Assembly (NCBI GenBank): GCA_025041175.1
Contig: JAKCFJ010000001.1
Coordinates: 2,435,526-2,499,525, forward strand
Origin: Halobacteriales archaeon YIM A00010
GTDB taxonomy: Archaea; Halobacteriota; Halobacteria; Halobacteriales; Haloarculaceae
Length of the DNA stretch: 64,000 nt
Reading direction: 5' to 3'
Below the pieces are notes generated by a model. The model was given only the letters and a program-made list of their open reading frames with translations. It was not told the DNA's origin and made no database searches. Of the stretch, positions 25,133-31,564 are shown piece after piece; positions within the stretch are counted from its first letter, which is position 1, and each line of letters starts with the position of its first letter. The translations under genes and the position numbers were made by a program.

Positions 25133-25198
25133 AGCGCTAGTCCCTTGCTCGAAGTTACCGTCAGTATCCTTTTCGTATCGGCTGAGAGTACTACACGT

Positions 25199-26434
25199 AT
25201 GGCCGAGAATCGGGACGAAAACGGGGATCGAGCCGGCGTCGAGCCGGGCGCGGTCGAGTACGAGCCAGTGGGTGTGAAGGATCTGCTTTCGGAGATGAAA
25301 GACACGGCGGAGCTGCTGATCGATCTGTCGTACTCGTCGGTGTTGTTCGGGAGCCAGTCGGTCGCTCGGGAGGTGTTGGCGCTCGAACGGCGGATGGACG
25401 TGCTCCAGTTGAAAGCGCGGATGAGCCTCCTTATGGCGGCTCGAAACCCCTCCGACGCCGAGGCGCTTGCGCCGGTGCTCGGCGTTGTGGCGGCAACAGA
25501 GAAGATCAGCGACGCCGCGGGGGACATCGCAAAGATCGTTACCGAGGAGATCGGGCTGCCCGACGCCGTTCGTGGGGCGCTGCCCGAAGCGCTCGAAACG
25601 CTGGTCAGCGTGGAACTCGCGGACGATTCGGCGCTCGTCGGGCAGACGCTGGGCGATCGCAACCTCGAAACGGACACCGGCGTGCGGGTCATCGCTCTGC
25701 GCCGCCAGGGCGAGTGGCTGTTGAACCCCGACCGGGAGACGATACCCGAAACGGGTGACGCGCTGTTGCTCCGCGGGCCCGAGGAGGGGATCGACGCGGT
25801 GTACACCGAGGCAACCGACGAGGAGTACCCCCGTCCCGACCCCCCCGAGACGGAGATCGAGGACGTCGAGCGCGCCGTCGACTCCATCGTGCTCATGAAG
25901 AACATGAGCGAGCTCGCGGTCGATCTGGCCTACGGGGCGGTGCTGTTTGACAACCAGGCGGTTGCCAAGGAAGTCCGAGAGCTCGAAATCGAGGTGGATG
26001 CGCTCCAATCCCGGTTCGAGGCGTGGACGCTCCGGGCAGGGGGTCGGGTCGAGGATCCCGTCAGCCTCCGGGGGCTGGTCCAACTCGCCCAATCCACGGA
26101 GGTCATCTCCGACGCAGCACTCGAAATCAGCGACGGTGTGCTGCGGGGGCTGGGCACCCACCCGGTGGTCGCCGCTGCCGTCGAGGAGAGCGTCGAGATC
26201 ATCATCCGCACGGAGATCGACCCCGACAGCGTGCTCGCGAACGCGACGCTCGGCCAGCAGAAGGTGAGCACGAAAACCGGGATGCGGGTGATCGCCGTCC
26301 GGCGCGGAACGGGCGAGGACGCCGACTGGATCGTCTCCCCCGGTCCCGACACCCGACTCAAAGCCGGCGACGTGATCATCGCCAAAGGAACGCGCGCCGG
26401 CTCCGAGCGGCTGACGGAGATGGCGGACGGCTGA
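25199..26434 (+). CDS. Tandem PhoU/TrkA-C protein (K+ transport regulator family)
   Basis: The 411-aa soluble protein contains two copies of the same unit: a PhoU-like helical domain (about 35-130 and 225-320) followed by a TrkA-C (RCK-C) domain (about 140-195 and 330-408). The repeats share phrases such as DLSYSSVLFGSQSVAREV and DLAYGAVLFDNQAVAKEV. RCK-C domains bind small ligands and gate cation channels; related archaeal proteins accompany potassium or other ion transporters. No transporter gene is adjacent here. The start at 25199 is chosen because upstream in-frame residues are hydrophobic and atypical. Confidence 0.8.
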   Translation: MAENRDENGDRAGVEPGAVEYEPVGVKDLLSEMKDTAELLIDLSYSSVLFGSQSVAREVLALERRMDVLQLKARMSLLMAARNPSDAEALAPVLGVVAATEKISDAAGDIAKIVTEEIGLPDAVRGALPEALETLVSVELADDSALVGQTLGDRNLETDTGVRVIALRRQGEWLLNPDRETIPETGDALLLRGPEEGIDAVYTEATDEEYPRPDPPETEIEDVERAVDSIVLMKNMSELAVDLAYGAVLFDNQAVAKEVRELEIEVDALQSRFEAWTLRAGGRVEDPVSLRGLVQLAQSTEVISDAALEISDGVLRGLGTHPVVAAAVEESVEIIIRTEIDPDSVLANATLGQQKVSTKTGMRVIAVRRGTGEDADWIVSPGPDTRLKAGDVIIAKGTRAGSERLTEMADG

Positions 26435-26501
26435 TGGGGACTGTTGTAATTCCATACCGCTGTGGCGAAACAGAACGGTTCGTGAAACCCTAGAGCAGTC
26501 G

Positions 26502-26700
26502 TCAGTCAACGACCGTGCCGAAAATACTCACAACAGTTCCTATGAGGCGATCCGCAAGCGATGGAGCCGACTCGAAAGGAACCACGGACTCCGACGCCGA
26601 CGAAACGGACCATTTTTCCGATCCAGTTCGGTCATCCGGGATCACCAGCGGAGTGGTATCCGGCTCGTTGCTCCAGGTGAAGACGAGGTTGCTCTCCCGC
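26502..26700 (-). pseudogene. Open-frame remnant abutting element D
   Basis: A frame reading ...SNLVFTWSNEPDTTPLVIPD... to SIFGTVVD ends at 26502. Its only upstream start codons lie inside element D (a frame open to 26780), and the element's terminal repeat forms part of the open frame. The sequence may be the 3' end of a gene whose 5' part was lost when the element inserted, or chance. No family is recognised. Confidence 0.25.
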
Positions 26701-26702
26701 TC

Positions 26703-26811
26703 ATACTGTCGGTCATGGATCATTGCACACTCGATGGCCTGTTTAGCCAGGTACTTGCTCCATGCTTCCGACAACGCCACTACCGGTGTACGTAAGTATG
26801 ACCGACAGTAT
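26703..26811. repeat. Miniature inverted-repeat element copy D
   Basis: This 109-bp copy has the same 14-bp terminal inverted repeats as C and aligns with it end to end without gaps, with conserved inner blocks such as GCTCCATGCT and CCGGTGTACGTA. It lies 3' of both flanking convergent genes (the TrkA-C gene and the LpxC-like gene). Confidence 0.8.
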
Positions 26812-26833
26812 CAGCACCGATAGCGCCAGATAT

Positions 26834-27583
26834 CTACTCCCTTCGATCGATGACGCCGCGTTCGTGGGCTGCTCTCGGGAGACCGATGGTAAGTGTGTGG
26901 TAGCTGTCGTCGAGATCGACCGTGACACGGAGATCGTCGAACCCGCCGATAACGGCGATGTCGGACAGGAGATCGGCGAGCGAATGGGTGACAGCAGTTG
27001 TCGTGTCCGGACTGAGATAGGGGGTCGTGGCGCTCGTGATGTCCTCGATCAGCCCCGGATCGTTCGCCGCTTTCGGATCGATCTCTGCGGTGATCTCGGC
27101 GTCCTCGTAGGTTACGTCAAATCGGATGCCTTCACCGTATTCACGTGGTTCGACAGTGATCGAACCCTGCTCGGTCGTGACAGTGACTGGCTCGGACACG
27201 GTCGTCCGGGTCTCGTCCGCCGTCCCGACGATGTCGGCATCCGCGAGGGCTGTGGAGAGATCCGGATTCGGCAGACCAGCAGGATGTCCAACCACGCTCG
27301 ACGGTGGGAGACCGGCCGCGTAGCAGAATCGGTGCTCGGGGCGATCGAACGACCACTCCGAGACGCGACCGGTTACGGCGGCGGCTTCGATCCCGTGGAG
27401 GCCGAGGACGCCGAGGACGTGTTCGGTGATGAACGCTCGCTGTCGATCCGTGGCGAGATCGACGCGTACGTCGGCCTTTCGGGCGTGGTCGAGGTCGGCG
27501 GGAATCCCGTTGATCGTGATTCCGTCCGTCGCTGGCTTGACGGTGACTTCGGAGCCGACGATCGGTTCGGCGACGGTCCTCAT
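26834..27583 (-). CDS. LpxC-like zinc-dependent deacetylase
   Basis: The 249-aa protein is unlike any family common in haloarchaea, but follows the LpxC pattern. Residues 51-68 (FITEHVLGVLGLHGIEAA) match the TVEHLLAALxGLGIDN motif, giving catalytic E54 and zinc ligand H55. Residues 199-212 (THSLADLLSDIAVI) match HKxLDxxGDLxL, giving H200, D204 and the conserved D208. H229 in DDSYHT matches the SGH histidine. In E. coli LpxC the equivalents are E78, H79, H238, D242, D246 and H265, with similar spacing. LpxC removes acetyl from UDP-3-O-acyl-GlcNAc in lipid A synthesis; archaea make no lipid A, so the substrate here must differ, perhaps another acetylated sugar nucleotide. It starts ATGA-coupled to the upstream M20-like gene. 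The family call rests on motif matching only. Confidence 0.6.
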   Translation of the reverse strand: MRTVAEPIVGSEVTVKPATDGITINGIPADLDHARKADVRVDLATDRQRAFITEHVLGVLGLHGIEAAAVTGRVSEWSFDRPEHRFCYAAGLPPSSVVGHPAGLPNPDLSTALADADIVGTADETRTTVSEPVTVTTEQGSITVEPREYGEGIRFDVTYEDAEITAEIDPKAANDPGLIEDITSATTPYLSPDTTTAVTHSLADLLSDIAVIGGFDDLRVTVDLDDSYHTLTIGLPRAAHERGVIDRRE

Positions 27584-28443
27584 CGAATCCCCCCGAGCGT
27601 CTCGACGATGGCTGTCAGAACCTCCACATCCCGCTCGAACGTCGTTTCATCGTAGGGTGTACCGGTCGTCGCCATACCGAACGCGAACCGCGTTTCGTTT
27701 GCGAGGCTGGAGAACGTCCCCGGACCTGGGAGCCACTCGTACTGAGCGTCACCGAGCACACGACAAACGGCATCCTCGACCTGCGCCCGACACTCCTCGG
27801 TCGGTTCGGCAACCGACACGTCATCTGTGGGTTCGTAGTCGACGGCCGTGACCGCGTCGATGTCCTCGAACGTCGCTTCGACGCGGTCGGTGGTCGTCGC
27901 AGGCGTTATGGACACATCGAACGTGATATCGACGCCCAGTGCCGTCTCAGTCGCGCCGTTGAAATCGAACGTCGTCATACCGTTCGTGAAGACACCGGCG
28001 TCGTCCTCGGCAACCGGGTAGACGTCGTGGCTCGGCTGTGCGGCGGTCAATACCGCGTCGACGGCGTCTCGAACGTCACCGAGACGGGTGTGGACGTTCT
28101 CGTCCGACACCCCAACGCTGACGGTTGCGTGCCCGCTCCCTGTCGCCACGGTCGAGAGGTGGCCGGCGAGGGGTGCGACGACGAGCCACGGGCCGGTCGC
28201 TTCCGCTGTTGGATCCGAATACTGGAGGCGTGCGTTCTGGGATCCGGCGGCAACGGTGGTTGCAGCGGCTAAACAACCGGCTGCGGCCGCGTCTGCTCCG
28301 TGGTACGTCCTGTCCTTCACCGTGGCGTTTACGACAGCAACGGACGGCTCGACCACCAGATTCACGGGCTGATCGGAAGCCGTGCCAGCGGTATCCCGTG
28401 CCGTGTCCCCGAGTTCGTCCACGGGTGGAAGCGTTAATGACAT
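27580..28443 (-). CDS. Degenerate M20-like (ArgE/DapE-fold) protein
   Basis: The 287-aa protein shows traces of the M20 deacylase fold: a YHGADAAAAGCLAAATTVA helix block, a lid-domain pattern (WLVVAPLAGHLSTVATGSGH, then ATVSVGV, ENVHTRLGDVRDAVDAVL), a strand block VDITFDVSITPATTTDRVEA, and a C-terminal LPGPGTFSSLANETRFAFG. The N-terminal metal-binding region (GHxDxVP-type) is missing and later ligands are not evident, so it is probably not an active zinc hydrolase. It is the first gene of a two-gene operon with the LpxC-like gene (ATGA overlap). A substrate-binding or scaffold role is possible. The fold call is tentative. Confidence 0.45.
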   Translation of the reverse strand: MSLTLPPVDELGDTARDTAGTASDQPVNLVVEPSVAVVNATVKDRTYHGADAAAAGCLAAATTVAAGSQNARLQYSDPTAEATGPWLVVAPLAGHLSTVATGSGHATVSVGVSDENVHTRLGDVRDAVDAVLTAAQPSHDVYPVAEDDAGVFTNGMTTFDFNGATETALGVDITFDVSITPATTTDRVEATFEDIDAVTAVDYEPTDDVSVAEPTEECRAQVEDAVCRVLGDAQYEWLPGPGTFSSLANETRFAFGMATTGTPYDETTFERDVEVLTAIVETLGGIR

Positions 28444-28600: not shown

Positions 28601-28690
28601 GGTCCCGGCACCCGGCTCAAAGCCGGCGGCGTGGTCGTCGCCAAAGCACGCGCCGGCTCCGAGCGGCTGTCCGAGACGGCGACGGGATGA
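28601..28690 (+). pseudogene. Decayed TrkA-C tail (duplicate of 26347-26434)
   Basis: The 30-codon stretch reads GPGTRLKAGGVVVAKARAGS then ERLSETATG and stop. It closely matches the last 30 residues of the PhoU/TrkA-C protein (GPDTRLKAGDVIIAKGTRAG...). No gene body precedes it. It marks either a lost second paralogue or a duplicated junction around the LpxC-like operon. Confidence 0.7.
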
Positions 28691-28774
28691 TGCCTCGATT
28701 CGAGACGCGTTTCACTTTACCCGCTCCTTCCGTCGACCGAAGCGCTTACACTATCGTCGCTGACACCAGTACAG

Positions 28775-30466: not shown

Positions 30467-30607
30467 AGCCGTAGATTGAGCGAGAGAGCACAAAGCGCCT
30501 TCGCAACAGGATGCCAGGAATGGATCAGATTCGATTCCGCCGACGGGGGGCGAAAATCGCCTCCGAAACCGAACGGTCTAAGAGGGTGGATTTACCGAAT
30601 ATACATA

Positions 30608-31564
30608 ATGACGACGCTCGGCACCGCGACCGCGTGTCCCGGCGAGATCGCAACGGGACGGCTGTCCGTCGGAGAGGCCCGTGACGGCAGCGACATCGGT
30701 CTCCCGGTTGCGGTGATCAACGGTACGGATGACGGCAAAACGCTGTACGTTCAGGCGGTGAGCGACGGTGACGAACTCAACGGTCTCGGTGTCGTCCGGC
30801 GGCTCGTGCCCCAGCTCGATCCGGAAGAGATCTCCGGTCGGATTCTCGTCGTGGGGATCGTCAACTACCACGGCTTTCACGCCGCCGAACACCGCAACCC
30901 GATCGACGACACGAAAACGAACCGGACGTATCCGGGCGATCCGAACGGGATGTCGACCGAGCGCATCGCTCACGCCACCTTCGACGCCGTGACGCGGGCC
31001 GATTTCGCGCTCGATCTCCACCAAGGCTCGACGAGCCGGATGATCGATGAGACCCGGGTCAGGTGTGGTTCGCGCCACCGGCTTCACTCGGCGTGTCTCG
31101 AACTCGCCAAGGTGTTCGACTGTGGTCACATCCTCGACCAGAAAGGTCCGGACGGACAGCTCGCGCGGACGGCTCCCGACGAGGGCGTTCCCACGATCGA
31201 TCCCGAACTCGGTGGCTCGGTCGGCTGGGATCACGAAAGCATCGAGCGCGGCCTTCGAGGGGTGTATCGGGTGCTCAAATACTACGGCTTTCTGGACGGC
31301 TCGGTCGACATCAATCCCCAGACGCGCGCGAACGGGTTCGAGCAGTACGCCTCGCCCGTCGGGGGGTTGGTGACGTTCCAAACCGATCTCGGAGATCGCG
31401 TCGAGAGCGGTGATCCCCTGTTCGACGTGACCGATCCGTTCGGTCGCGTCAAATCCACCGTGACCGCCGACTCGACTGGTGTGTTCTGGCGCACGCGCCG
31501 CCTGCCACAAGTCGCAACGGGAGAGTACGTCTGTTCTATCGGCACTAATCTCGATGAGTACTGA
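30608..31564 (+). CDS. Succinylglutamate desuccinylase/aspartoacylase-family hydrolase
   Basis: The 318-aa protein resembles the AstE/AspA metallohydrolases of the M14 fold: VVGIVNYHGFHAAEHRNPID near residue 80-100, NRTYPGDPNG, FALDLHQGSTSRM and a C-terminal beta domain (ASPVGGLVTFQTDLGDRV...VTADSTGVFWRTRRL) that resembles a biotinyl/lipoyl-like module. Such enzymes cleave N-acyl amino acids or unblock polyamine-like compounds. The start at 30608 begins after the TATA-like TTTACC...TATACAT. The next gene starts inside its last codons (31554), so the two are co-translated. Confidence 0.8.
   Translation: MTTLGTATACPGEIATGRLSVGEARDGSDIGLPVAVINGTDDGKTLYVQAVSDGDELNGLGVVRRLVPQLDPEEISGRILVVGIVNYHGFHAAEHRNPIDDTKTNRTYPGDPNGMSTERIAHATFDAVTRADFALDLHQGSTSRMIDETRVRCGSRHRLHSACLELAKVFDCGHILDQKGPDGQLARTAPDEGVPTIDPELGGSVGWDHESIERGLRGVYRVLKYYGFLDGSVDINPQTRANGFEQYASPVGGLVTFQTDLGDRVESGDPLFDVTDPFGRVKSTVTADSTGVFWRTRRLPQVATGEYVCSIGTNLDEY

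Follow-up and report, generated by a model that had tools for sequence, protein, structure and literature searches.

A haloarchaeal gene pair encoding an M20-fold protein without metal ligands and an LpxC-like protein, candidate subunits of one amidohydrolase

LpxC is an enzyme of lipid A synthesis and an antibiotic target. In the Pseudomonas aeruginosa protein, H78, H237 and D241 sit on the zinc, E77, T190 and H264 lie in the centre, and Insert II forms a hydrophobic channel, according to PMC5454807. A second described group is that of the M20 deacylases of the ArgE/DapE/LysK type (PF01546/PF07687), whose fold consists of a core and an inserted lid domain. A third is that of the pseudopeptidases, peptidase-family proteins that have lost their active site and probably serve a partner. 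The cases in the passages of PMC11266112 considered here are M14 carboxypeptidases, and none is an M20 pseudoenzyme coupled to an enzyme with a different fold. Among the literature matches listed for LpxC in archaea or haloarchaea, titles and the opening lines of abstracts mention no archaeal relative of LpxC.

Here we describe two genes that combine features of these three groups. They lie on the minus strand of a 64,000-nucleotide stretch, hereafter the window, of contig C1 in the 5.97 Mb genome of Halobacteriales archaeon YIM A00010. P1 (27580-28443) encodes 287 aa and P2 (26834-27583) encodes 249 aa; the start codon of P2 overlaps the stop codon of P1 in an ATGA (27580-27583, minus strand), and both open reading frames and their overlap are confirmed as first called. 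The initial annotation had suggested that the two products make up a complex, in which the LpxC-like protein is the catalytic subunit and an M20-like, apparently inactive protein binds the substrate. Overall, this interpretation is partly supported: the nature of both proteins is borne out by the results below, while binding of P1 to P2 and of substrate to P1 is putative. Our best explanation, to which we give a probability of about one half, is a hetero-oligomeric zinc amidohydrolase composed of P1 and P2 and acting in a catabolic island; P2 would be its catalytic subunit and P1 the pseudo-M20 partner, and the pair would replace a second M20 enzyme.

P1 has eight further homologues at 35-41% identity, and purifying constraint was seen in all 36 pairwise comparisons (pN/pS 0.46-0.87); given these homologues and this constraint, P1 is a gene kept by selection and not a chance open reading frame. 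Pfam and NCBIfam hold no family for it. None of the nine P1 homologues matched the M20 models PF01546 and PF07687, a search of PDB sequences with P1 returned no M20 chain, and profile comparison by hhalign gave a probability of 0.1 against the active M20 of the island and 0.1-3.1 against the M20 sets c1, c5 and both joined, which amounts to no link. No match was found between the P1 and P2 profiles by the same method. The picture from structure prediction differs. An AlphaFold2 model built from the nine homologues (pLDDT 86.6, pTM 0.80) found DapE as its best Foldseek match (E 1.9e-12), and the best 50 rows are all enzymes of M20 type. Superposition of the model on the N-acetyl-ornithine/lysine deacetylase 4q7a with VIA-align gave Z 19.9 and rmsd 3.8 over 276 of 286 residues, and the model shows both the core and the inserted lid domain. 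The M20 likeness of P1 is visible in predicted structure, over the whole length of the protein, and not in sequence. The lid and core patterns that had been reported from the sequence are thus found in the model (Z 19.9), but not in the sequence comparisons.

Compared with M20 deacylases, P1 is about 70-100 residues shorter, has no detectable sequence similarity to them and lacks their metal motifs. GHxD, DxKGG and HxxDE occur in none of the nine homologues, and an EE[TE] string occurs in only one of them, at its N terminus. GHxD, DxKGG and HxxDE were found, by contrast, in all 18 c1 and all 10 c5 proteins, the active M20s called in the same islands. The only H, D, E or C residues invariant in the nine P1 proteins, a count that needs no alignment to M20, are H139 and E204; these are too few for the two-metal M20 site, which is gone from P1. 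The absence of an N-terminal metal motif noted by the initial annotation is therefore real and extends to the whole site. A separate observation concerns the second P1 of Halorussus litoreus (L028, 9729-10712, minus strand), which can begin with a twin-arginine-like leader in which RRFALK precedes a hydrophobic segment. The P2 of that locus has no such leader, and the true start of P1 may lie further downstream; export of P1 alone would clash with a cytoplasmic P1-P2 complex.

The P2 model retrieved 43 LpxC rows at Z 13.8-15.5, with the next fold at 7.4, and adopts the LpxC fold, at the low confidence of pLDDT 62.5 and with residues 53-106 below 50. Sequence scores were weak. PF03331 reached 14.5 bits with the P2 of the window (E 0.025), below its cut-off of 27; 7 of 10 P2 homologues matched it weakly (E up to 1, best 0.0012), and the P2 family profile matched Aquifex LpxC at E 0.012. 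Against the single E. coli LpxC, hhalign with the P2 profile aligned only a 20-residue stretch around H238-D246 (probability 0.2), and a search of PDB sequences with just the C-terminal part of P2 returned no LpxC. Because of Insert II, MAFFT misaligns the C-terminal half of P2 to E. coli LpxC; pairwise alignment was used instead. It placed E54, H55, H200, D204, D208 and H229 of the window protein on E78, H79, H238, D242, D246 and H265. All six were placed in this way in 6 of 10 P2 proteins (that of the window and five of the nine others), not in the remaining four, and the alignments scored modestly against shuffles (z 2.9 for the window protein, 1.1-3.4 over the 10 homologues). In the P2 family's own alignment, these six residues and T187, the counterpart of E. 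coli T191, are invariant in all 10 proteins, and the gene is under constraint (pN/pS 0.34-0.73).

The weak scores, the modest z values, the partial placement and the low pLDDT would fit a P2 that is functionally no relative of LpxC, sharing a distant fold while its conserved residues serve otherwise. We regard this as improbable, given the gap in Z between LpxC and the next fold and the invariance of all seven positions of the catalytic set. Model and alignment mark P2 as a relative of LpxC whose active site is conserved, and the catalytic role first suggested for it agrees with its LpxC fold (Z up to 15.5) and with the conservation of the putative zinc ligands and catalytic residues.

P2 nevertheless departs from LpxC in several respects. 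T187 and H200 are separated by 12-13 residues in all 10 proteins versus 47 in E. coli LpxC, so that Insert II, the passage for the acyl chain, is missing. The position of Lys239 holds S, A or W in all 10. Past the E54-H55 helix, P2 has an extra stretch in which R81, E83, H84, R85, H100 and N106 are invariant. P2 is moreover archaeal and encoded in a catabolic gene string beside P1. A bacterial-derived LpxC of the lipid A type, still deacetylating UDP-acyl-GlcNAc, would explain the conserved catalytic set, but the absence of Insert II and Lys239 and the catabolic operon context speak against it, and haloarchaea are not known to contain lipid A; we consider it extremely improbable. Canonical LpxC was found above cut-off in none of 294 genomes of the phylum. 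A single weak LpxC match, in G092, was discarded, as it overlaps an open reading frame on the opposite strand that resembles a MaoC-type gene.

The two genes keep together. Ten pair loci were found, nine of them complete and the tenth cut by a contig end, and homologues of P1 and P2 were never found apart. With this result and the M20 fold of the P1 model, neither of the two outcomes named by the initial annotation as refuting its reading occurred. The junction is an ATGA or GTGA overlap in eight of nine homologous loci, that of Salinigranum being different. The pair is rare: of 293 genomes of the order, 6 have strong matches to P2, and these six also have the matches to P1. In one of the six, G165, the P1 match consists of a tail only (E 0.0017), as the contig ends there. 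Scanning genome contigs with the P2 alignment yielded seven loci, of which four were already among the hits in the order and three were new. The named relatives carrying the pair are all haloarchaea and include Halorussus halobius, Halorussus litoreus (two copies), Halobacterium bonnevillei and Salinigranum salinum. Among 392 genomes drawn from the phylum, strong matches to either profile occurred only in G094 and in the genome of the window (G000), and P2 is present in one of seven genomes of the window's genus. Weaker matches comprise six for P1 (E 0.002-0.009, besides the G165 tail), five for P2 (E 4e-4 to 0.006) and three partial ones in the phylum scan (2e-4). P1 and P2 distances are correlated (Mantel r 0.67, p 0.0018), a result that also follows from shared descent. 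The pair occurs twice without an adjoining active M20, in the window and in L028, and P1 and P2 therefore move as one unit. Neither plasmids nor viral contigs gave a match to the pair, and an origin from either was dropped as an explanation.

In the window's genome, the active M20 gene c1 and a gene for a short-chain dehydrogenase/reductase (SDR) lie on another contig, C3, and the pair stands alone, as it does in L028. It is flanked by a PhoU/TrkA-C-type gene and a 5'-nucleotidase gene, as judged from their sequences. In two congeners (G605 and G606), both flanking genes align, 0.7-1.1 kb apart, and the pair is absent. The PhoU/TrkA-C-type gene (25145-26434, plus strand) has its 3' end, at 26342-26436, repeated beyond the pair at 28601-28692, with 84-89% identity in two blocks. 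The pair thus seems to lie between the gene and a copy of its tail. Owing to this repeat and to the congeners without the pair, the pair appears to have been inserted in the lineage of the window; its loss in other lineages is a possible alternative. Just downstream of P2, an 18-base inverted repeat (26699-26716 and 26798-26815, 94%, arms 81 bases apart) falls in a local GC dip to 0.57. Further along, an AstE/aspartoacylase-like open reading frame (30476-31564, plus strand) adds one more gene of deacylase type, the third, to this neighbourhood; in the other pair loci, no clustered relative of it was called.

Most relatives show a different arrangement. An active ArgE/DapE-type M20 gene, c1, lies directly upstream of the pair in 7 of 10 loci, preceded by the SDR gene in six of those seven, and the pair forms the last part of this SDR-M20 gene string in 7 of 10 loci. 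The c1 copy tested, that of L026, scored above the cut-off of TIGR01910. Neighbouring genes, not all present at each locus, encode aldehyde dehydrogenases, a class III aminotransferase, an Lrp-type regulator and an oligopeptide-type ABC transporter. c1 was found in 18 of 293 genomes, including all six that bear the pair (hypergeometric 2e-8, a value that assumes independent genomes, which these are not).

Since most relatives have an active M20 directly upstream, P1 gains a second possible partner. It could be a regulatory or lid-donating partner of c1, in a hetero-oligomer formed via the lid domain, with P2 acting independently as the enzyme of a different step in that pathway. The complete M20 layout of the P1 model, lid included, is consistent with such a role, as are the position of c1 and its presence in all pair-bearing genomes. 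The c1 and P1 genes overlap in five of six measured junctions, which would also suit P1 as a partner of c1, and at 35-41% identity P1 evolves faster than expected for a tight substrate-binding subunit of a P1-P2 enzyme. On the other hand, the constant neighbour of P1 is P2 and not the M20, the pair stands alone in the window and in L028, c1 occurs without P1 in 12 of its 18 genomes, and c1 is conserved at 70-89% identity, far above P1. We see in a P1 that serves the upstream M20 the main competitor of the P1-P2 enzyme, and hold it to be possible, though only at low odds.

Two island types emerged when 21 stretches around c1, each at most 20 kb long, were compared. Seven carry the pair and lack both the sodium symporter c3 and the second M20, c5; the 13 that carry c3 and c5 (64-100% identity to the queries) all lack the pair. 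In the remaining island, in G165, the contig stops less than 100 bases after c1, and the pair is found at the start of another contig. The exclusivity of 7 versus 13 islands gives a Fisher value of about 1.3e-5 (4.9e-6 with G165 counted; 0.002 at the level of genera, with 6 and 5 genera), values that are too small because of relatedness, as 7 of the 13 c3-c5 islands come from one genus (g37). Halorussus (g29) has both island types. A close relative of c5 is absent from the pair genomes G161, G094, G237 and G165 (best 34-36%) and present in G058 (59%) and in the window's genome (78%). The latter holds both types, with c5 in the island L046 and the pair on the chromosome, so that replacement of c5 by the pair is not strict at the level of the genome.

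L046 (contig C3, 440000-459999), which houses the active M20 of the window's genome, is a dense cluster for amide or amino acid breakdown. It also contains two HyuC-like M20 amidases, a D-aminoacylase-like gene, several sodium symporters, an aminotransferase and a methylmalonate-semialdehyde dehydrogenase-like gene. Pantothenate breakdown would fit the island gene list, with the M20 as amidase, the SDR and aldehyde dehydrogenase for pantoate and the aminotransferase for beta-alanine. The literature matches listed for pantothenate breakdown as the island pathway held nothing to the point, and this pathway is not claimed.

The orphan pairs outside islands (in the window and L028) and the fast evolution of P1 could also be explained by a sensor or modifying module with no breakdown step, in which P2 might, for instance, remove an acyl group from a signal or protein while P1 binds the ligand. 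This is unlikely, as the pair ends the SDR-M20 gene string in most loci and alternates with an enzyme gene, c5.

For the P1-P2 amidohydrolase that we favour, the following course may be proposed. P1 and P2 would be made together from their overlapping genes. P2 may bind zinc via H55, H200 and D204, with E54 activating the water and H229 protonating the leaving amine. Because the acyl-chain passage and Lys239 are absent, the substrate should be smaller than UDP-acyl-GlcNAc. P1, keeping the two-domain M20 scaffold of core and lid, would grip or position the substrate, or lend stability to P2. The pair would act in the island around the active ArgE/DapE-type M20, the SDR, the aldehyde dehydrogenases and the class III aminotransferase, and would take the place that c5 has in the alternative island. 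It likely acts on a small compound of N-acyl or amide type, and the amine released may pass to the aminotransferase. The pair probably serves nutrient breakdown and not lipid A synthesis.

As to how such an enzyme arose, we tentatively put forward a scenario that is more speculative. The ancestor of P1 may have been an N-acyl-amino-acid deacylase belonging to the same island, from which P1 would have kept the scaffold and the grip on the substrate but lost both metals. The cut would then be made by a subunit of LpxC fold recruited outside lipid A synthesis, and the pair would have displaced c5 in several haloarchaeal lineages.

An archaeal LpxC relative that keeps its active site within a catabolic gene string would show this fold working outside lipid A. 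A deacylase built by coupling an M20 pseudoenzyme to an enzyme with a different fold would be unusual, and the existence of two alternative island types makes the role of the pair testable by gene removal in a laboratory haloarchaeon.
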